Assembly: GCF_000299935.1 (NCBI RefSeq)
Contig: NZ_AMRL01000004.1
Span: forward strand, 124,001-188,000
DNA from: Oceanibaculum indicum P24
Lineage (GTDB): Bacteria; Pseudomonadota; Alphaproteobacteria; Oceanibaculales; Oceanibaculaceae
Direction of reading: 5' to 3'
DNA length: 64,000 nucleotides
The position numbers and the translations under genes are program-made. A model generated the notes under the pieces. That model saw only the letters and a list, made by a program, of their open reading frames with translations, did no database searches and was not told the origin of the DNA. Positions 40,069 to 50,349 of the stretch are shown here, one piece after another (positions within the stretch are counted from its first letter, which is position 1; each line of letters opens with the position of its first letter).

Positions 40069-40908
40069 ATGAACATCGCCCCCGCCATCCACCAGGAGAA
40101 GGTCACCCAGACCGACCTCGCAAGAGGCGATGGCTGGAGCGTCAGCGACGTGATCTGCCGCTGCGGGCCAGAGGACAAACCCTATGAGGAACAGCATGGC
40201 CCTTCAGTGATCGCCGCCGTGCTGTCCGGCAATTTCGTCTATCGCTCGGACCGGGGCAGCACGCTGATGGCGGCGGGGTCGCTGATGCTGGGCAACGCAG
40301 GGGCGTGCTATTCCTGCGGGCATGAGCATGGTGCCGGGGACCGTTGCCTGGCCTTCCATTTCACGCCCGGTTTCCTTGAGGATGTCGCGGGCGGCCTGCC
40401 CGGCCTGCGGTGGATCGATTTCCCGCAGCATCGCCTGCCGCCGATGGCCACGCTGACGCCCTTGTTCGCGGCGGCGGAAACCGCCTTGCTGGAAGAAGAC
40501 GCCCCTGCACTGGAGGAATTGGCGCTGCGCATGGCGGGCGCAGCACTGCGTCTCAGCCACGCCGATTCACCGCCACCGGACCGCGCCCGGGATATCGGCC
40601 GCATCGCGGCTGCCGCCCGGCTGATCGAGGAGCACTACACCGAACCGCTGACGATTGCCGATATCGCCGCCAGGGTCGGTCTCAGCCGCTATCACTTCCT
40701 GCGCCTGTTCAGCGCCACCATGGGCATGACGCCCTATCAGTATCTGCTGAACCGTCGTCTGCGAGCGGCCGCCCGTACCTTGCGCGCGGATCGCAGGAGC
40801 GTGCTGGACGCGGCATTGTCTTCCGGTTTCGGCGATCTGTCGGAATTCACCCGGCGTTTCCGCCGCACCTTCGGGCAGACGCCGGCATCCTATCGGAGCA
40901 AGCGCTAG
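40069..40908 (+). CDS. AraC family transcriptional regulator
   Basis: This 279-residue regulator has an N-terminal cupin-like sensor domain (about 15-110, with AAGSLMLGNAGACYSCGHEH, a Cys/His-containing stretch) and a C-terminal double helix-turn-helix. In the latter, ADIAARVGLSRYHFLRLFSA (near 195) is the first helix-turn-helix and DAALSSGFGDLSEFTRRFRR the second, with the closing motif FGQTPASYR. The ATG at 40069 is chosen; a TTG nine codons upstream lies before the likely transcription start. It is divergent from the glycolipid-binding fusion gene, the natural candidate target. Its 3' end overlaps the convergent cNMP-binding gene by 4 nt. Confidence 0.92.
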   Translation: MNIAPAIHQEKVTQTDLARGDGWSVSDVICRCGPEDKPYEEQHGPSVIAAVLSGNFVYRSDRGSTLMAAGSLMLGNAGACYSCGHEHGAGDRCLAFHFTPGFLEDVAGGLPGLRWIDFPQHRLPPMATLTPLFAAAETALLEEDAPALEELALRMAGAALRLSHADSPPPDRARDIGRIAAAARLIEEHYTEPLTIADIAARVGLSRYHFLRLFSATMGMTPYQYLLNRRLRAAARTLRADRRSVLDAALSSGFGDLSEFTRRFRRTFGQTPASYRSKR

Positions 40909-41303
40909 TTCCAGCGCCCCATTTCGGCATCGCGGCGCAGATGGTCCGCCAGCATCATGTTGGTGGTGTAGAGCCGTTTCATCAGCACCTTCAGCAGCGC
41001 CTTCACGCCCGGCTCGCAGCTTTCCAGCAGCTTGTCCATGACCTGCTCGTTGATCGTCGAGCAGACGGTCAGTTCCAGGGCGCGGACCGAGGCCTGGCGC
41101 GGCCCCTTGGCGATCAGCGCCATCTCGCCGATGATCTCGCCCTCGCCCAGTTCGGCGAGCACGGTTTCCTGCTCGTTCCGGCCGACGAACACCTCAACCC
41201 GGCCGGATTCGATGAGATAGGCATGGCTGCCAAGCTCCCCCTCCCGGAACAGCACCGCACCGGCATAAAACACCCGACGGTCGAGTACCTTGGTCTTGGC
41301 CAT
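40905..41303 (-). CDS. Stand-alone cyclic nucleotide-binding domain protein
   Basis: This 132-residue protein is a single CAP-type effector domain without the DNA-binding helix-turn-helix. FYAGAVLFREGELGSHAYLI opens the beta-roll. The phosphate-binding cassette GEGEIIGEMALIAKGPRQASVRA keeps the conserved Glu (GEMALI) and Arg (PRQASV), so cAMP/cGMP binding is plausible. The C-terminal helices (about 90-132) are too short for a helix-turn-helix. It lies between the AraC gene (convergent, 4-nt overlap) and the photolyase operon (divergent, about 100 nt from its promoter). A partner protein is unknown. Confidence 0.85.
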   Translation of the reverse strand: MAKTKVLDRRVFYAGAVLFREGELGSHAYLIESGRVEVFVGRNEQETVLAELGEGEIIGEMALIAKGPRQASVRALELTVCSTINEQVMDKLLESCEPGVKALLKVLMKRLYTTNMMLADHLRRDAEMGRWN

Positions 41304-41406
41304 GCTGTGCGCCGCCTCTTCAGCCCTGATAAAGCCCGTTATCGCGCAGCCTGCCTAGGCTTGCAAATCAATAGGATGTTATCGCCGTGCGGATGCACGC
41401 CACGAA

Positions 41407-41434
41407 TGATCCGTTAGGCACGCGCTTCCGTAAA
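41407..41434 (+). promoter_or_regulatory. RpoE/ChrR-type ECF sigma promoter of the photolyase operon
   Basis: TGATCC (41407-41412), 18 nt, then TAAA (41431-41434). This equals the -35/-10 pattern I recall for the singlet-oxygen sigma-E of Rhodobacter sphaeroides (TGATCC-N18-TAA). It faces phrB and would start transcription near 41442, leaving a leader of about 35 nt before the ATG at 41479. Confidence 0.7.
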
Positions 41435-41478
41435 AGTTAATGTTTCTACACCATATCTTCGTGAGCGCCTTGCATTCC

Positions 41479-42933
41479 ATGCACCGAGACAGCGACAGGC
41501 CCCTCCTCCTCTGGTTCCGGCAGGATCTGCGCCTTGCGGACAATCCGGCCCTGCGCGCGGCGGTGGAGAGCGGACAACCGATCCTGCCCGTCTACATCCT
41601 CGATGACGAGACGCCTGGTGCCTGGGCGATTGGCGGTGCCGCGCGCTGGTGGCTGCATCACAGCCTGACGGCGCTGTCGCATGACCTGAAGGCGCTTGGT
41701 GCACCGCTCATCCTGCGGCGGGGCGACTCACGCGAGGTAATCGACTCGCTGGTGAGGGAGGCCGGCGCAACGGCGGTGTACTGGAACCGCTGCTACGAGC
41801 CTTTTGCCCGCAAGCGCGACGAGGCCATCAAGGCTACCCTGAAACAGGACGGGATCGAGGCCCGCAGCTTCAATTCCGCACTGCTGCACGAACCCTGGAC
41901 GGTCGAGAACAAGTCCGGCGAACCGTTCCGTGTCTATTCCGCCTTCTGGCGTGCCTGTCTGGCGAAGGGCAAGCCGGACAAGCCGCTGCCCGCGCCGGAA
42001 ACGCTTGTGGCGGCTTCCGCGCCGGCCAGCGACAGCATCGGGGATTGGAAATTGCTGCCCACCAAGCCGAACTGGGCGAAGCGCTTCGAGTCCGCCTGGA
42101 CGCCCGGAGAGAACGGCGCGCAGGAGCGGCTGACGGGCTTCCTTGACGAAGCGGTCAACCGCTACAAGGCAGAGCGCGACCGCCCGGATATCGAGGCGAC
42201 ATCCCGCCTGTCGCCGCATCTGCATTTCGGCGAGATCGGCCCACGCCAGATCTGGCATGCCACCCGCGCCGCCATGGCCGCCCATGATCTTAACGAGGCC
42301 AGCGCCGAGAAATTCCTGTCGGAAGTCGGCTGGCGGGAATTCTCCCACCATCTGCTCTATCACAATGATGCCCTGCCCGAGCATCCCCTGCGGCCGGAAT
42401 TCGCGGATTTCCCCTGGCACGAGAACGACAAGGCGCTGACCGCCTGGCAGCGCGGCCTGACCGGCTATCCCATTGTCGATGCCGGCATGCGGGAACTCTG
42501 GGCGACCGGCTGGATGCACAACCGGGTGCGGATGATCGTGGCCTCCTTCCTGGTGAAGGATCTGCTGATCCCCTGGCAGGAGGGCGAAGCCTGGTTCTGG
42601 GACACGCTCGTCGATGCCGACCTCGCCAACAACGCGGCGAGCTGGCAGTGGGTCGCCGGCTGCGGCGCCGATGCCGCGCCCTATTTCCGCATCTTCAACC
42701 CGGTGCTGCAGGGCGAGAAGTTCGACCCGGAGGGTGCTTATGTCCGGCGCTGGGTGCCGGAGCTCGCGAAGATGCCGGCCTCCCATATCCACAAGCCCTG
42801 GCTGGCCCCCGACGATGTGATGCGTCAGGCCGGCGTGACGCTGGGCAAGAGCTATCCCAACCCCATCGTGGACCATGGCACGGCGCGCGACCGCGCGCTC
42901 GACGCCTTCTCCCGCATCAAGAAGGCGGCCTGA
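41479..42933 (+). CDS. phrB: Deoxyribodipyrimidine photolyase (CPD class I type)
   Basis: This light-dependent FAD enzyme splits cyclobutane pyrimidine dimers. With the ATG at 41479 it has 484 residues. The antenna-binding alpha/beta domain opens LLLWFRQDLRLADNPALRAA. The FAD domain shows SRLSPHLHFGEIGPRQIW, SEVGWREFSHHLLYHND, GYPIVDAGMRELWATGWMHN, and NNAASWQWVAGCGADAAPYF near the end, with the electron-transfer tryptophans present. An ATG at 41440 and GTG at 41461 are in frame; the first lies upstream of the predicted transcript start, so the later starts are favoured. It is the first gene of a six-gene operon; the next ATG abuts its stop. Confidence 0.95.
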   Translation: MHRDSDRPLLLWFRQDLRLADNPALRAAVESGQPILPVYILDDETPGAWAIGGAARWWLHHSLTALSHDLKALGAPLILRRGDSREVIDSLVREAGATAVYWNRCYEPFARKRDEAIKATLKQDGIEARSFNSALLHEPWTVENKSGEPFRVYSAFWRACLAKGKPDKPLPAPETLVAASAPASDSIGDWKLLPTKPNWAKRFESAWTPGENGAQERLTGFLDEAVNRYKAERDRPDIEATSRLSPHLHFGEIGPRQIWHATRAAMAAHDLNEASAEKFLSEVGWREFSHHLLYHNDALPEHPLRPEFADFPWHENDKALTAWQRGLTGYPIVDAGMRELWATGWMHNRVRMIVASFLVKDLLIPWQEGEAWFWDTLVDADLANNAASWQWVAGCGADAAPYFRIFNPVLQGEKFDPEGAYVRRWVPELAKMPASHIHKPWLAPDDVMRQAGVTLGKSYPNPIVDHGTARDRALDAFSRIKKAA

Positions 42934-44250
42934 ATGAGAATAGCGATTGTCGGCAGCGGTATCTCCGGCCTCGGCGCCGCCTGGCTGCTGCACCAGCGCC
43001 ACGAGATCACGATCTACGAGAAGGAGTCCCGGATCGGCGGCCACGCCAACACGGTGGAAGCGGATTTCGGCGACAAGCAGATTCCGGTCGATACCGGCTT
43101 CATCGTGTTCAACGACCGCAATTATCCGAACCTGCGCGGCCTGTTCAGCGAACTGGACGTGCCCTACCGGAACAGCGAGATGTCCTTCGGCGTCTCCATC
43201 GATGGCGGGCGCCTGGAATATGGCGGCGGCAGTATCCCGCAGCTGTTCGCGCAGAAGCGCAATCTGCTGCGCCCGCGTTTTGTCAGGATGGTGCGTGATA
43301 TCTTGCGTTTCTTCCGCGAGGCGCCGGAGCTGCTGGAGGGCGATGCCGGTGCGCAGTCGCTTGGCGAGTATCTGAAGCGCAACCGCTATTCCGACGGTTT
43401 CCTGTACGACCATCTGCTGCCGATGGCGGCCGCCATCTGGTCCTGCCCGGTAGAGACCATGCTAGAGTTCCCGGCAGCCAGCTTCGCGCGCTTCTTCCAC
43501 AATCACGGCCTGCTGACCGTAAACGACCGGCCGCAATGGATGACGGTCGAAGGCGGCAGCCGCGAATATGTGCGGCGCCTCACGGCGCCCTTTGCCGACC
43601 GGTTCCGCCTCGGCAATGCCGCGGTGTCGGTGCGGCGGGTGCCCGGCGGCGTGATGGTGCGCGGCGCGGATGGCGAAGAGACTTTGTTCGACCAGGTCAT
43701 CCTAGCCAGCCATGCCGACCAGTCGCTGGCGCTGCTGGCCGATGCCGACGCGGCAGAGCGCGGCATTATGGGGCGGTTCCGCTACCAGCTGAACGAGGCG
43801 GTGCTACACCGCGACCCGGCCCTGATGCCGCGGCGCCGCGGCGTCTGGTCGAGCTGGAACTATCTGGCCGAGGGCGACGCCTATGACCGCGAGGTTGCCG
43901 TCACCTACTGGATGAATTTGCTGCAGGGCATCGACCCCGCCTGCCCGCTGTTCGTCACGCTGAACCCGATCCGCCAGCCCGACCCGGACAAGGTGTTCGC
44001 CCGGATTTCCTACAGCCATCCGGTGTTCGATGGCCCCGCCATGCAGGCACAGCGGGAGCTGAACCGCATTCAGGGCACGCGCGGCCTGTGGTTCTGCGGT
44101 GCCTGGGGCGGCTATGGCTTTCACGAGGACGGGCTGAAATCCGGCATCGCCGTTGCGCGTGCGCTGGGCGCGGACGTGCCCTGGCAGACCGAGGTGCAGC
44201 CCGCCGGGAACCCGCCCCCCGGTGTTGCGCCGCTGCTGGCGGGCGACTGA
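42934..44250 (+). CDS. NAD(P)/FAD-dependent oxidoreductase (amine-oxidase fold, COG2907-like)
   Basis: This 438-residue flavoprotein has an N-terminal Rossmann motif IAIVGSGISGLGAAWLL at residues 3-19, an Arg/Glu region EKESRIGGHANTVEADFGD, and VDTGFIVFNDRNYPNL. The C-terminal FAD motif is LWFCGAWGGYGFHEDGLKSG. It resembles the flavin oxidoreductase that travels with cyclopropane-synthase-like genes in RpoE/ChrR regulons and the flavin partner (UfaD) of furan fatty acid synthesis. Acting on phospholipid acyl chains is therefore likely but inferred. Its ATG directly follows the phrB stop, and the DUF1365 ATG follows after 2 nt. Confidence 0.92.
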   Translation: MRIAIVGSGISGLGAAWLLHQRHEITIYEKESRIGGHANTVEADFGDKQIPVDTGFIVFNDRNYPNLRGLFSELDVPYRNSEMSFGVSIDGGRLEYGGGSIPQLFAQKRNLLRPRFVRMVRDILRFFREAPELLEGDAGAQSLGEYLKRNRYSDGFLYDHLLPMAAAIWSCPVETMLEFPAASFARFFHNHGLLTVNDRPQWMTVEGGSREYVRRLTAPFADRFRLGNAAVSVRRVPGGVMVRGADGEETLFDQVILASHADQSLALLADADAAERGIMGRFRYQLNEAVLHRDPALMPRRRGVWSSWNYLAEGDAYDREVAVTYWMNLLQGIDPACPLFVTLNPIRQPDPDKVFARISYSHPVFDGPAMQAQRELNRIQGTRGLWFCGAWGGYGFHEDGLKSGIAVARALGADVPWQTEVQPAGNPPPGVAPLLAGD

Positions 44251-44252
44251 GC

Positions 44253-45092
44253 ATGACTGGCCAAACGCCGCATACGGATTGGCAATCCTGTCTCTATCGC
44301 GGGCGGGTGACACACAGCCGGCTATCGCCCTTCCGGCACAAATTCCATTACCGCGTCTTCTCGCTGCTGGTCGATCTGGACGAGCTGCCGGCGCTCGACG
44401 CCGGATTGCGGCTGTTCTCCTATAACCGCGCGAACCTGCTTAGCTTCCATGATCGCGACCATGGCCCGCGCGATGGCAGCCCCTTGCGCCCCTGGGTCGA
44501 GCGCCACCTGGCCGCCGCCGGCATCGACAATGATGGCGGGCGCATCTCGCTGCTGTGCTTTCCGCGCCTCATGGGCTTCGTGTTCAACCCGCTGTCGATC
44601 TATTACTGCCGTGACCGGCAGGACCGGCTGACCGCCATCCTCTACGAGGTGAAGAACACCTTCGGCCAGCAGCATGGCTATCTGCTGCCGGTTCCCGCCG
44701 ACCGGCAGCCCGGCGCGCCGATCCTGCAGCGCCAGGAGAAGGGCTTCTACGTCTCGCCCTTCATGCCGATGGAGTGCCGCTACCGCTTCCGCCTGAACGA
44801 GCCGGACGAGAGCCTGTCCATCCTGATCCGCCAGGATGAGGCCGGCCCTGATGGCGTACCGCTGCTGGCCGCCACCCACATGGCGGAGCGCGCGGCACTG
44901 ACGGACGCCGGCCTGCTGTCGGCCTTCGCGCAACACCCGCTGATGACGCTGAAGGTGATCGGCGGCATCCATTGGGAGGCGCTGCGCCTGTGGCGCAAGG
45001 GGGCGCGGTTCCATGCCCGCCCCACCCCGCCTGCCCGTGACGTTTCGATCTGGTCCGACCCCGCCCTCGCAAACGGGAGACACGAAAATTGA
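44253..45092 (+). CDS. DUF1365 domain-containing protein
   Basis: This 279-residue protein of unknown biochemistry nearly always lies between this flavin oxidoreductase and a CFA-synthase-like methyltransferase. The DUF1365 text is evident: CLYRGRVTHSRLSPFRHKFH at the N-terminus, LLCFPRLMGFVFNPLSIYYC near residue 108, YEVKNTFGQQHGYLLP, and KGFYVSPFMPMECRYRFRL. The ATG at 44253 lies 2 nt after the preceding stop; a much longer in-frame extension into the upstream gene is rejected. The stop overlaps the next start codon by 4 nt. A role in lipid modification is inferred from constant linkage. Confidence 0.92.
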   Translation: MTGQTPHTDWQSCLYRGRVTHSRLSPFRHKFHYRVFSLLVDLDELPALDAGLRLFSYNRANLLSFHDRDHGPRDGSPLRPWVERHLAAAGIDNDGGRISLLCFPRLMGFVFNPLSIYYCRDRQDRLTAILYEVKNTFGQQHGYLLPVPADRQPGAPILQRQEKGFYVSPFMPMECRYRFRLNEPDESLSILIRQDEAGPDGVPLLAATHMAERAALTDAGLLSAFAQHPLMTLKVIGGIHWEALRLWRKGARFHARPTPPARDVSIWSDPALANGRHEN

Positions 45093-46330
45093 GCGACGCC
45101 ACCATGACCATCGACGGCCGTTCCTGGATCGCCCAGATGCGGCGCCGGCCCGACCGCAGCCTGACACGCTGGATGTGGCTTGGCCTGAAGATGCTGCGCA
45201 ACCTCAGCCACGGCACGCTGATCGTTGTGCTGCCGGATGGCAGGCGCTTCCGCTTCGACAGCCCGCATGAGGGACCGGAGGCGACCATCCTGGTGCGCGA
45301 TCAGCGCATGGCGCGGCGCTGGTTCATGGGCGGCAGCGTCGGCTGGTCGGAATCCTATCTGGATGGCGAGTGGGACAGCCCCGACCCCGCCAAGGTGGTT
45401 GAGCTGTTCTCGATCAATGTCGCCGCGCTGGAACAGCATATCGACGGCAATTGGTGGAGCCGGCTGGCGGGCCGCGCGCTGCATGCACTGAACCGCAACA
45501 ACCGGCGCGGCAGCCAGCGCAACATCGCCTATCACTATGATCTGGGGAATGATTTCTACCGCCGCTGGCTCGACCCCTCCATGACCTATTCCTCGGCGGT
45601 GTTCGAGGGCAGCCAGCAGGATCTGGAAGCCGCCCAGCGCGCCAAGTACCGCCGTATCTGCACCCTGCTAGACGCCCAACCCGGCCAGCATGTGCTGGAG
45701 ATCGGCTGCGGCTGGGGCGGCTTTGCGGAGGTCGCGGCGGGCGAGTTTGGCCTGAAAGTCACCGGCATCACCCTGTCGCAGCAGCAGCACGCCTACGCCA
45801 CCGAGCGGATCGCCCGGGCCGACCTGTCAGACCGTGTGGAGCTGCGCCTGCAGGATTACCGCGACGTCAGCGAGCGGTTCGACCGTATCGCCTCCATCGA
45901 AATGTTCGAGGCGGTGGGCGAACGCTATTGGCCGGTATTCTTCGACAAGGTGAAATCCTGCCTCACGGAAAACGGCAAGGCAGCGATGCAGGTCATCACC
46001 ATCGCCGATGACCGGTTCGAGGCCTATCGCAGCTCCCCCGACTTCATCCAGCGCTACATCTTCCCCGGCGGCATGCTGCCGTCCGACAGTATCCTGCGCG
46101 GGCTGGTCAATGATGCCGGCATGTCTCTGACGCGCGATGACGGCTTCGGGCTGGACTATGCCCGAACGCTGCGCCACTGGAGCGACGCCTTCCGCACCGC
46201 CTGGCCGGACATCCGGGAGATGGGCTTCGACGAGCGTTTCCGGCGCATGTGGGAATTCTATCTGCATTATTGCGAGGGCGGCTTCCGGTCCGGCAGCATC
46301 GACGTGCGCCAGATCGCCTTCAGCCGCTAA
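45089..46330 (+). CDS. Cyclopropane-fatty-acyl-phospholipid synthase-like SAM methyltransferase
   Basis: This 413-residue enzyme methylates unsaturated phospholipid acyl chains in situ. The SAM motif I VLEIGCGWGGFAEVAAGEFG is near residues 200-220. The preceding text NIAYHYDLGNDFYRRWLDPS and YSSAVFEG, then IEMFEAVGERYW, YIFPGGMLPSD and HYCEGGFRSG, are CFA-synthase hallmarks. The TTG at 45089 has GGGAGA upstream and overlaps the DUF1365 stop by 4 nt; an ATG five codons later is the alternative. In this gene company the product may be a cyclopropane or a furan-fatty-acid precursor, so I avoid naming it cfa. Confidence 0.93.
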   Translation: MSDATMTIDGRSWIAQMRRRPDRSLTRWMWLGLKMLRNLSHGTLIVVLPDGRRFRFDSPHEGPEATILVRDQRMARRWFMGGSVGWSESYLDGEWDSPDPAKVVELFSINVAALEQHIDGNWWSRLAGRALHALNRNNRRGSQRNIAYHYDLGNDFYRRWLDPSMTYSSAVFEGSQQDLEAAQRAKYRRICTLLDAQPGQHVLEIGCGWGGFAEVAAGEFGLKVTGITLSQQQHAYATERIARADLSDRVELRLQDYRDVSERFDRIASIEMFEAVGERYWPVFFDKVKSCLTENGKAAMQVITIADDRFEAYRSSPDFIQRYIFPGGMLPSDSILRGLVNDAGMSLTRDDGFGLDYARTLRHWSDAFRTAWPDIREMGFDERFRRMWEFYLHYCEGGFRSGSIDVRQIAFSR

Positions 46331-46333
46331 CGC

Positions 46334-47650
46334 ATGCCCCATACCCCCCTGGCACGCCGGATACTCGCCGCCTATGGCCTGCCCGGCCTGCCGATGGCAG
46401 CGCTAGGACTGCCGCTGTTCATCTATCTGCCGACCTTCTATGCCGCCGATCTGGGGCTGAACCTCACGGCGGTCGGCGCGGTGCTGCTGCTGGCACGGCT
46501 GTGGGACGGGGTGACCGATCCGGCGGTCGGCGTGCTCAGTGACCGCACGCGCAGCCGCTGGGGCCGGCGCCGGCCCTGGATGATCACCGGGCTGCCGGTG
46601 ACCCTGCTGGCCATGTGGATGCTGTTCGTGCCACCGCAAGATGCGGGCATCTTGCATCTGCTGGGCTGGTCGATGCTGCTCTATCTTGGCTGGACGATGA
46701 TCTCCCTGCCGCATTCCGCCTGGGGGGCGGAGCTGTCGCCGGATTACCACGAACGCTCCCGCATTACTGCCTCACGCGAGTTGTTCGTCGTACTGGGCAC
46801 GCTGATCGCGGCCGGCCTGCCCTCGCTGGTCGGGGGCGGCAACGCCGAGGTGCTGAAAGTGCTGGCGATTACCCTGCTGATCGCCCTGCCGCTGACAATC
46901 CTGCTGGCCAGTGTGGTTGTCAGTGAACCGCCTCGCCCTGCCCCGCGTACATGTAACTGGAGACTGGCAATAAGGGTGCTCCTCGCGAACCGCCCCTTCC
47001 GCCGGCTGATCGTGGCCTATCTGCTGAATGGTATCGCAAATGGCCTGCCGGCGACCCTGGTTCTGCTGTTTGCGGCCCAGGTACTCCAACTGGGCGATTT
47101 GAGCGGCCTGTTCCTTACGGTGTATTTCGGATGCGGCATTCTCTCCATACCGGTCTGGATCGCGGCCAGCCGCAAGCTGGAGAAGCACCGCGCCTGGTGC
47201 ATGGCGATGCTGCTGAACTGCCTGTTCTTCGCACCAGTGCCCCTGCTGGGCGCGGGCGACATGGCGGGATTCCTGGCAATCTGTGTGCTGACCGGCCTGT
47301 GCCTGGGCGCCGATCTCGCCCTGCCGCCCTCAATGCAGGCGGATGTGGTGGATATCGACACGGCGGAGAGCGGGGCACACCGCGCCGGCCTGTATTTCGC
47401 GCTGTGGGGCGTGGCGACGAAGCTGGCGCTGGCGCTGGCCGTGGGCATCGCCTTTCCAATCCTCGACCTGTTCGGCTTTCAGGCGGCAGCTGGCAGTGCG
47501 AACGATCCGCTGGCGCTGTCCGCCCTGGCCGCGCTCTACGCCATCGCGCCGATCGCCTTCAAGCTGGCCGCTATCGCGCTGATGTGGGGCTATCCTATCG
47601 GCGCGGCCGAGCATGCGGCGGTGAAGCGCCGGATCGAGGCCGTGCCATGA
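46334..47650 (+). CDS. MFS transporter (GPH cation symporter type)
   Basis: This 438-residue, about 12-span membrane protein has the MFS_2/GPH layout: a short N-terminus RRILAAYGLPGLPMAALGLP, then LARLWDGVTDPAVGVLSDRT (near 50), and GRRRPWMITGLPVTLLAMWM. The second half shows GLCLGADLALPPSMQADVVD and the acidic ESGAHRAGLYFA. The ATG is 3 nt after the methyltransferase stop. In this operon it may move a lipid-related or sugar substrate; none can be read from sequence. Confidence 0.9.
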   Translation: MPHTPLARRILAAYGLPGLPMAALGLPLFIYLPTFYAADLGLNLTAVGAVLLLARLWDGVTDPAVGVLSDRTRSRWGRRRPWMITGLPVTLLAMWMLFVPPQDAGILHLLGWSMLLYLGWTMISLPHSAWGAELSPDYHERSRITASRELFVVLGTLIAAGLPSLVGGGNAEVLKVLAITLLIALPLTILLASVVVSEPPRPAPRTCNWRLAIRVLLANRPFRRLIVAYLLNGIANGLPATLVLLFAAQVLQLGDLSGLFLTVYFGCGILSIPVWIAASRKLEKHRAWCMAMLLNCLFFAPVPLLGAGDMAGFLAICVLTGLCLGADLALPPSMQADVVDIDTAESGAHRAGLYFALWGVATKLALALAVGIAFPILDLFGFQAAAGSANDPLALSALAALYAIAPIAFKLAAIALMWGYPIGAAEHAAVKRRIEAVP

Positions 47651-47677
47651 TTTCCAATGTTTCCGGGAGGATCACCA

Positions 47678-48238
47678 ATGTTTCGCGCCGCAGCAGCGCT
47701 GCTGGCTGCCGTTCTTCTGCTGGGAGGATGCAGCGCCATGAAGCCTGAGGATTTCGCCGGCACCGAGCCGAAATTGACCGTCGAGGAGTATTTTGCCGGC
47801 AAGAGCCGCGCCTGGGGCATCTTCCAGGACCGGTTCGGCACGCTGAAGCGCAGCTTCACGGTCGATATCGAGGGCCGGCAGGAAGGCGACGAGTTCGTCC
47901 TCGTTGAGGATTTCGTCTATGACGATGGCGAGACCGACCGGCGCATCTGGCGCATCCGCAAGCTGGACGAGCACCGCTATGAAGGCCGCGCCGACGATGT
48001 GGTCGGCACCGCAACCGGAATCGCCTACGGCAAGGCGCTGAACTGGCGCTACGATTTCGATCTGAAGGTCGGCGAGCGGACGATCCGCGTGCATTTCGAC
48101 GACTGGATGTTCCGGCAGGATGACAAGGTCATGGTGAACCGCGCCACGGTCACCAAGTTCGGCATCGAGCTGGGTCAGGTCACGCTGTTCTTCCTGCGCG
48201 AGGACAAAAAGCAGACCGCCTCCCTCGCGGCGGAGTGA
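47678..48238 (+). CDS. DUF3833 family lipoprotein
   Basis: This 186-residue exported lipoprotein has a signal peptide MFRAAAALLAAVLLLGGC whose lipobox LLGGC places the acylated Cys at residue 18. The mature domain shows YFAGKSRAWGIFQDRFGTLK and FVYDDGETDRRIWRIRKLDE, matching the DUF3833 pattern. The ATG at 47678 has GGGAGG upstream, 27 nt after the MFS stop; an in-frame ATG seven codons earlier is less likely. It ends the photolyase operon and is followed by a palindromic repeat. Its function is unknown; a periplasm-facing role in envelope lipid maintenance is inferred. Confidence 0.9.
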   Translation: MFRAAAALLAAVLLLGGCSAMKPEDFAGTEPKLTVEEYFAGKSRAWGIFQDRFGTLKRSFTVDIEGRQEGDEFVLVEDFVYDDGETDRRIWRIRKLDEHRYEGRADDVVGTATGIAYGKALNWRYDFDLKVGERTIRVHFDDWMFRQDDKVMVNRATVTKFGIELGQVTLFFLREDKKQTASLAAE

Positions 48239-48383: not shown

Positions 48384-48806
48384 CTAGACCGCCAGCTTCC
48401 GCCTCACCCACCGCAGCAGCGCGCCGAGGACCGGTAGGCGCTCATAAAGCTGGCTGGCGGCATCCCAATGGTCAACATGCTCTGCCACCAGCCCGTCGGG
48501 GCGGAAGCGCACCTCGCTCATGCCCTCGATGGTCCAGATCTCGACCGCGCCCTTGCGCCGGAAGCTGAACCGCCACCGGTAAAAGGCGGTATCGCCCTCG
48601 ATGGCGGTGCGCAGGATGGTGAAGCGCGGCTGCTCCACCGTCTCGAACATGTGCCGGAAGACGGCGCGGTATTTCTCGATGCCCGTCACATCGTTGAACG
48701 GATCGACGAAGCGCACATCGGGTGCCACGATCCCGTCCAGCCGGTCCAGACTGTCCGGGGCGATAGTCTCGAAGAAGCGGCCATAGGCCGCAACGGCCTG
48801 TTTCAC
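48384..48806 (-). CDS. Nuclear transport factor 2 (SnoaL)-like protein
   Basis: This 140-residue NTF2-fold protein starts at the GTG at 48806, whose GTGA overlaps the stop of the SDR gene, showing translational coupling. Text such as YGRFFETIAPDSLDRLDGIV, APDVRFVDPFNDVTGIEKYR and HMFETVEQPRF is typical of the fold; the cavity usually binds small hydrophobic ligands. A longer open frame upstream overlaps the SDR gene and is rejected. NTF2-like and SDR genes often accompany the DUF1365/CFA module in other proteobacteria, so a related role is likely. Confidence 0.85.
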   Translation of the reverse strand: MKQAVAAYGRFFETIAPDSLDRLDGIVAPDVRFVDPFNDVTGIEKYRAVFRHMFETVEQPRFTILRTAIEGDTAFYRWRFSFRRKGAVEIWTIEGMSEVRFRPDGLVAEHVDHWDAASQLYERLPVLGALLRWVRRKLAV

Positions 48807-49570
48807 TGTTTCGTCGCCCGCCTGATCATCGGGAAATAGAGAGCATAGGGCAGGCAGCGCAGAATCTTCAGCAGATAGGTGAAGCGCTTCGGAAAGGTGA
48901 TCTCGAAGCCGTCGCCGTCCAGCCCGCGAATGAGGGCGGCGGCCGCATCCTCCGGCTCCATCAAGAACGGCATGGGGAACGGATTCCTGTCCGTCAGCGG
49001 CGTGCGCACGAAGCCGGGATTGACGATCTGCATCTTCACGCCCAGCCGGTCGCATTCCGGTTTCAACGATTCCGCCATGTTGATCAGACCGGCCTTGGTT
49101 GCGCCATAGGCGGCGGAGGTCGGCAGGCCGCGATAGCCCGCAACCGAGGCAACGATGGCAATCTGTCCGCGCCTTCGGTTCCTGAACGTCGCCAGCAGCG
49201 GCTCCAGACAGTTTGCCGTGCCCATCAGGTTCAGCTCAACCAGCTCGCGCAGCTTTTCCGCCTTGAAATCATCGGCGCTGACCGGCTCATGCGTGCCGGC
49301 ATTCAGCAGGGCGATATCGATGGGGCCATGCTCCGCCTCGATGCGGGCAACCGTATCGGCGGTTGCTTGGCCGTCTGTCACATCCAGCTCGTAGGGCAGG
49401 ATGCTGCCTTCCGGCGCCTCCCCGGCCAGCCCCTTCAGCTTGTCGGCCGAACGCGCGCTGACCGCCACCCGGTCACCCCGACGGGCAAGCTGCAGGGCGA
49501 CTTCCCGGCCCAGCCCATAGCTCGCGCCGGTGATCCAGATCAGTCGGCTGGCGGGCTTAGCGTTGTTCAT
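48803..49570 (-). CDS. Short-chain dehydrogenase/reductase
   Basis: This 255-residue classical SDR has the NAD(P) motif TGASYGLGREVALQLARRG at residues 15-33. Asp near LDVTDGQ, NAG in LLNAGTHEP, catalytic Ser in ASVAGYRG and the Tyr-x-x-x-Lys pair SAAYGATKAG are present. The C-terminus is hydrophobic/basic (TYLLKILRCLPYALYFPMI), suggesting membrane association. It overlaps the DUF6134 gene by 14 nt and the NTF2 gene by 4 nt, so the three form one operon. The substrate is unknown. Confidence 0.92.
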   Translation of the reverse strand: MNNAKPASRLIWITGASYGLGREVALQLARRGDRVAVSARSADKLKGLAGEAPEGSILPYELDVTDGQATADTVARIEAEHGPIDIALLNAGTHEPVSADDFKAEKLRELVELNLMGTANCLEPLLATFRNRRRGQIAIVASVAGYRGLPTSAAYGATKAGLINMAESLKPECDRLGVKMQIVNPGFVRTPLTDRNPFPMPFLMEPEDAAAALIRGLDGDGFEITFPKRFTYLLKILRCLPYALYFPMIRRATKQ

Positions 49571-50270
49571 TCTGCGCCACCGTCACATAGCGGCTGGCGG
49601 GCTCGCCGGGCGGCACATCCTCAAGGCTGAAATTCCAGGGCGTATCCGACGGCACCAGGCGGCGGGTATAGAGCACTTCCTCGCCGCGCCCGTCGAAGCT
49701 GCCACCGACCCAGCGCTTATCCGCGTCGTAGCAGAGCTGCATGGTGAGCTCGCCGGTCATGTCGTAGCAGCCCTCACGCCCCGCCATCGCGGTCATCTCA
49801 ACTTCCCGGACGATGCCCTTCTGGGTATCCAGCAGACGGCCCTGGCGGACCGTCGCATAACGCCAGTAATCCGACGGGAAGATATCGGCCGGAACCTTGA
49901 TCCGGCCATCGACACCCAGCAGCGAGAGCGTGCCGTCGCCGCGCCCGGCATCATCCTGCCGGGCGAGTACGGCGAAGTAATCGCCATCATCATTGGTGCG
50001 GGTCTCGATGCTCACCACCTTGCCGTCCTCGATCAGGGTGCGGTTGCGGTGCGTGTAGCGGTACAACGCGATGGGACCGAATTTCAGCTCGAAATCGATC
50101 ATGATCTCGACCCTGGCCCTGTCGCCATCGCGCTCGATGCGCAGCCGGTGCCAGCCCAGTGGATCACCACCGCGCGTCACCTCGAAATCGATGCGCTCGA
50201 CCGTGGGTTCGGCCTGGGCCGACGGCGTGACGGCCAGAAGAATTGCGGCAGCGGCGAGAAGTCGTTTCAT
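49557..50270 (-). CDS. Exported DUF6134-like protein
   Basis: This 237-residue protein has a clear Sec signal MKRLLAAAAILLAVTPSAQA (cleavage after residue 20). The mature part is beta-rich: VERIDFEVTRGGDPLGWHRL, ALYRYTHRNRTLIEDGKVVS, FPSDYWRYATVRQGRLLDTQ. This follows the DUF6134 pattern as I remember it. The start is the ATG at 50270; the open frame continues upstream into the NicO gene region but lacks support. It overlaps the SDR by 14 nt. Its biological role is unknown, possibly handling a lipophilic ligand in the periplasm with the SDR/NTF2 pair. Confidence 0.8.
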   Translation of the reverse strand: MKRLLAAAAILLAVTPSAQAEPTVERIDFEVTRGGDPLGWHRLRIERDGDRARVEIMIDFELKFGPIALYRYTHRNRTLIEDGKVVSIETRTNDDGDYFAVLARQDDAGRGDGTLSLLGVDGRIKVPADIFPSDYWRYATVRQGRLLDTQKGIVREVEMTAMAGREGCYDMTGELTMQLCYDADKRWVGGSFDGRGEEVLYTRRLVPSDTPWNFSLEDVPPGEPASRYVTVAQNEQR

Positions 50271-50349
50271 GGCAACACATCCCGGTTTCCGTTGCGGATC
50301 AGTTCCCCTTTCTACGCACGGACAGGCGGAACGGATGTCGCAGCAGTCT

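Follow-up and report, generated by a model that had tools for sequence, protein, structure and literature searches.

Which sigma factor transcribes the photolyase gene phrB of Oceanibaculum indicum P24, together with the genes that follow it? This question was addressed in a 64-kb stretch of the genome, the whole of which was analyzed and is referred to here as the window. A sequence-only reading had noticed TGATCC, 18 nt and TAAA at positions 41407–41434, correctly placed and oriented for phrB, and had equated this arrangement with the promoter pattern of the singlet-oxygen ECF sigma factor of Rhodobacter sphaeroides. The motif is present exactly on the plus strand, where 41407–41434 reads TGATCCGTTAGGCACGCGCTTCCGTAAA, with the TAAA at 41431–41434, and can be written as TGATCC-N16-CGTAAA. 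It is located in the gap between phrB and a divergently oriented gene for a cyclic-nucleotide-binding protein (40905–41303, minus strand). The comparison was correct as well, as the R. sphaeroides Pos19 promoter is TGATCC(N15)GCGTA, i.e., TGATCC-N16-CGTA (PMC5036791), and the phrB site agrees exactly with this published RpoE/ECF11 promoter form. The promoters of the phrB operons of Pseudomonas syringae (aGATCC-N16-CGTA, identified by ChIP-seq and qRT-PCR; PMC5507510, with the promoters in its Table 3) and Shewanella oneidensis (TGATCC...CGTAAT; PMC4336711) have a similar form. Based on the motif, its conservation, the gene content of the locus and the co-occurrence with ChrR, 41407–41434 is very probably a promoter recognized by RpoE, the ECF11-type sigma factor of the genome's own rpoE-chrR pair.

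Table 1 Features of the phrB locus and of the convergent operon (positions in the window)
Feature	Position	Strand	Basis or remark
Predicted −35 element, TGATCC	41407..41412	+	Sequence read; invariant in four genus members
Spacer, 16 nt, GTTAGGCACGCGCTTC	41413..41428	+	Length invariant, sequence not conserved
Predicted −10 element, CGTAAA	41429..41434	+	CGTAAAA invariant in four species
phrB, photolyase (PF00875 + PF03441)	41479..42933	+	Start ATG 41479, not 41440, by start-codon comparison
FAD amine-oxidase-type flavoprotein, family of RSP_1091 (UfaD)	42934..44250	+	Family and context; PMC7380195, PMC5507510 Table 2
DUF1365 protein, family of RSP_1090 (UfaO)	44247..45092	+	284 bits; PMC7380195
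CFA-synthase-like SAM methyltransferase, likely UfaM-type (RSP_2144)	45089..46330	+	TTG start; PMC7380195
MFS/GPH-type transporter	46334..47650	+	Family match
DUF3833 protein, lipoprotein-like N-terminus	47657..48238	+	Cf. RSP_1088, listed as lipoprotein; PMC5507510 Table 2
SnoaL-like protein, last gene of convergent operon	48384..49055	−	True start probably within the ORF
Short-chain dehydrogenase (SDR)	48803..49570	−	Cf. RSP_1087; PMC5507510 Table 2
DUF6134 protein, first gene of convergent operon	49557..50270	−	
Predicted second promoter of the same kind, ACATCC-N16-CGTA(GAA)	50313..50338	−	Degenerate −35; −10 and spacing kept in four species

The six genes of the phrB operon overlap or nearly touch at their ends. 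In R. sphaeroides, UfaD (RSP_1091), UfaO (RSP_1090) and UfaM (RSP_2144) are responsible for the synthesis of a methylated furan fatty acid (PMC7380195). Because a flavoprotein, a DUF1365 protein and a methyltransferase act together in that pathway, the gene that the sequence-only reading had called cyclopropane-synthase-like more likely belongs to the UfaM type, as judged from family and context. The orthology of its two neighbors with UfaD and UfaO is likewise suggested by family and context rather than by direct comparison. The three genes hint at the formation of furan fatty acids instead of ordinary cyclopropane lipids.

Transcripts from promoters of this kind usually start 7–9 nt after CGTA. 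For phrB this would be at about 41439–41441, that is, on the in-frame ATG at 41440, and therefore, contrary to the sequence-only reading, the promoter alone does not discard this ATG. The rejection of 41440 as start codon nevertheless stands on comparative grounds: all four species compared share ATG 41479, located 46–49 nt after CGTA, whereas ATG 41440 and the residues following it are not conserved. Because of this difference in conservation, translation of phrB most likely starts at 41479.

An operon of DUF6134, SDR and SnoaL genes faces the phrB operon. The putative promoter in front of it escapes a strict pattern search, yet it is kept in four species, the −35 elements of the other three genus members being GCATCC, TCATCT and TCATCC. 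In other genomes, perfect sites precede SDR and SnoaL genes as well (L220, L249 and L293). Together, the two convergent operons form one 9-kb block, in which the core RpoE-ChrR targets listed in Table 2 of PMC5507510 are present with the exception of rpoE-chrR itself. The targets gathered behind such promoters are phrB, the cfa/ufaM-like, ufaD-like and ufaO-like genes, the DUF3833 lipoprotein-like gene and the SDR gene.

The sequence-only reading presupposes an ECF11/ChrR-type sigma factor in the genome, and a search for rpoE-chrR recovered one such pair, an ECF sigma gene with a gene for a ChrR-family anti-sigma factor behind it (G000:C5:22622-23829), on a different contig of the assembly from the phrB locus. 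Against TIGR02451 (cut-off 124.5) the ChrR protein reaches 234 bits, and its alignment with the R. sphaeroides ChrR of known structure covers almost the full length. All eight zinc ligands are kept (list of ligands from PMC6852236; R. sphaeroides numbering), namely His6, His31, Cys35 and Cys38 of the anti-sigma domain and His141, His143, Glu147 and His177 of the cupin domain. The best PDB match of the sigma factor is R. sphaeroides RpoE with 161 bits, followed by a match with 62 bits, and at E ≤ 1e-40 the genome contains only one sigma gene of the RpoE type.

A search upstream of rpoE in this species found no canonical autoregulatory promoter. Here and in the nearest sister species, rpoE's own promoter reads TAATCC-N17-CGTATAAG, about 170–200 nt ahead of the probable start of rpoE (L009 and L327), whereas two other genus members have the canonical TGATCC-N16-CGTA at rpoE. 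The rpoE promoter thus appears to have drifted in these two species, and the autoregulation of RpoE in this species may be weak, or at least weaker, or absent. A canonical promoter is customary at rpoE-chrR, but a target promoter does not depend on it. This departure from the consensus has no bearing on the phrB site.

Upstream of phrB, all four genus members compared share an unchanged TGATCC and an unchanged CGTAAAA, with a spacing of exactly 16 nt. The region 5' of phrB is otherwise mostly unalignable among them, with a scrambled spacer, and the whole phrB locus with both operons is conserved in the genus. For a broader comparison, 109 phrB loci were searched for the motif within 300 nt upstream of phrB, and each genome was scored for ChrR. 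Of the 64 ChrR-positive genomes, 27 had TGATCY-N16-CGTA before phrB, compared with a single one of the 45 ChrR-negative genomes (Fisher p = 5e-7, not corrected for kinship; the sample contains related genomes and includes non-Proteobacteria, so that this p value overstates independence). Spacers of N14, N15, N17 or N18 and the reversed motif yielded no matches before phrB in the 109 loci. In a sample from the same class picked by kinship alone, the site was found in eight of 18 ChrR-positive and in none of 12 ChrR-negative genomes (p = 0.007). A survey of 120 TGATCC-N16-CGTA sites in ECF11 genomes placed them before rpoE-chrR, phrB, ufaD-ufaO, rpoH, DUF3833, MFS and SDR genes.

A genome-wide search for TGATCC-N18-TA sites had been proposed along with the sequence-only reading. 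The loose form TGATCC-N18-TAWR gave eight matches in the genome, which sorted poorly, and the N16-CGTA form was used instead. Strict TGATCC-N16-CGTA sites number five in the genome and lie before phrB, before an rpoH-type sigma gene and, in three cases, upstream of chemoreceptor genes. Relaxing the sixth base (TGATCN) added about three matches per alternative base, which is about chance level. Among the expected targets, matching sites in the genus precede the rpoH-type gene, rpoE-chrR (in two sister species) and the DUF6134-SDR-SnoaL operon. The strict site of the rpoH-type gene lies 112 nt upstream and is kept in two sister species. In R. sphaeroides, rpoHII is a direct RpoE target (PMC6852236).

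Short motifs also arise by chance, in which case another promoter would drive phrB. The phrB site is the sole strict match on both strands of the window, and dinucleotide-shuffled windows contained TGATCC-N16-CGTA with a mean of 0.1, at least one match occurring in 29 of 300 shuffles, i.e., in about 10%. The corresponding means were 0.2 for TGATCC-N18-TAWR and 0.42 for a looser spacer range. By itself, the match is unusual and not decisive. We regard the phrB site as more than chance because of its position, its conservation in four species around a scrambled spacer, and its link to ChrR across 109 genomes. The fixed spacing in the four species and the identical motif at expected regulon members also contradict a fortuitous match, which is extremely improbable. 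The promoter could also be real and be read by an ECF sigma factor of equal specificity other than the RpoE of the rpoE-chrR pair. Such a situation would resemble Pseudomonas fluorescens, which is reported to have phrB genes with the motif while lacking a sigma gene of this kind (PMC5507510), and the single ChrR-negative genome with a site before phrB, a fragmentary MAG (L012), fits it too. Against this stand the only RpoE-type sigma gene of the genome and the strong co-occurrence of the site with ChrR, which make a different sigma factor very unlikely.

Finally, the RpoE promoter may be genuine but secondary, with most photolyase made from a constitutive or light-controlled promoter and the RpoE site mattering only under strong stress. 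Photolyase can evidently do without the site, which is missing before phrB in 37 of the 64 ChrR-positive genomes. A scan of 41250–41520 for sigma-70-like hexamer pairs, the one promoter type covered, found none, which speaks against this division of labor; an Rfam search of the locus gave no match. We consider a secondary role rather unlikely, and it is compatible with transcription by RpoE, not exclusive of it. Transcription of the photolyase operon from an RpoE/ChrR-type promoter, as originally proposed, is supported by the rpoE-chrR pair, the conservation, the co-occurrence with ChrR and the matching targets. The promoter that had been recognized by eye in the sequence thus proved right.

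By analogy with published relatives, the zinc-containing anti-sigma factor ChrR, with its anti-sigma and cupin-like domains, would keep RpoE inactive until ChrR is lost in response to singlet oxygen or organic peroxides, both the signal and the ChrR turnover being taken from these relatives. Free RpoE would then bind TGATCC/CGTA and, if it acts as its described counterparts do, transcribe phrB-ufaD-ufaO-ufaM-MFS-DUF3833, and from the second site the convergent DUF6134-SDR-SnoaL operon. The encoded proteins would serve the repair of DNA photodamage and the remodeling or repair of membrane lipids, including furan fatty acids, provided that the enzymes function as in the characterized organisms. 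RpoE would also turn on the rpoH-type sigma gene, resulting in a cascade like that of Rhodobacter.

These features closely resemble the RpoE-ChrR system of R. sphaeroides (Donohue 2019, PMC6852236) with respect to the promoter motif, an rpoE-chrR pair with all zinc ligands, and photolyase; the regulation of R. sphaeroides phrA is attributed to Hendrischk 2007 as cited in PMC5036791. The regulon of that organism also shares the ufaD/ufaO/ufaM-type genes, an SDR gene, a lipoprotein gene and an rpoH-type target. However, the R. sphaeroides targets are located in separate loci (RSP_1087-1091 and RSP_2143-2144), in contrast to the two convergent operons of the 9-kb block. The PSPTO_1043/1042 regulon of P. 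syringae DC3000 (PMC5507510), a Gammaproteobacterium, likewise contains a phrB-led operon with flavin amine oxidase, RSP_1090-like and cfa genes, whereas its diguanylate cyclase and glyoxalase members were not seen at the locus studied here. S. oneidensis RpoE2-ChrR, for which the 5' ends of rpoE2 and pgpD have been mapped, has phrB and cfa in one operon behind such a promoter, but this operon begins with ybgA and the regulon has a glutathione peroxidase target (PMC4336711). The phrB promoter represents a further instance of a regulon already described and brings nothing new beyond the species, as the mechanism is known from Rhodobacter, Pseudomonas and Shewanella. It extends this stress regulon to another alphaproteobacterial genus with the core targets together in one 9-kb block, so that the locus can serve as a convenient marker for the response to singlet oxygen.

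Two of the strict sites upstream of chemoreceptor genes may indicate that the RpoE-ChrR regulon of this species and its closest sister took in chemoreceptors, namely the PAS-PAS-MCP protein and perhaps a HAMP-type protein. The PAS-PAS-MCP gene has a perfect site 84 nt upstream (G000:C12:52109-52134, minus strand, L158), which is well kept in the nearest sister (L166) with a diverged spacer. The HAMP-type gene, part of a chemoreceptor cluster, has a strict site more than 300 nt upstream (G000:C7:28929-28954, minus strand, L154; L151 in the sister). Photo-oxidative stress would then retune swimming behavior besides repair. No report of chemoreceptors in an ECF11/ChrR regulon was among the titles and abstracts returned by literature searches. 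A link of RpoE-ChrR to motility is not without precedent, as deletion of chrR suppresses swimming in P. syringae (PMC11813219). Because the orthologues in the two other genus members and most relatives lack the PAS-PAS-MCP site, we treat the recruitment of chemoreceptors as a weak and doubtful possibility.

The third match, before a small gene and a chemoreceptor gene (G000:C18:22805-22830, L162), was discounted as evidence for ECF11; it overlaps a perfect FNR-type box, TTGAT-N4-ATCAA, TTGATCCAAATCAA. In other genomes, strict sites were seen 120–150 nt upstream of a chemoreceptor gene (L235; Azospirillum brasilense HAMBI_3172, G085) and of a HAMP-domain chemoreceptor-like gene (L149; G002). 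The TGA of the PAS-PAS-MCP site on contig C12 doubles as the stop codon of the upstream gene.
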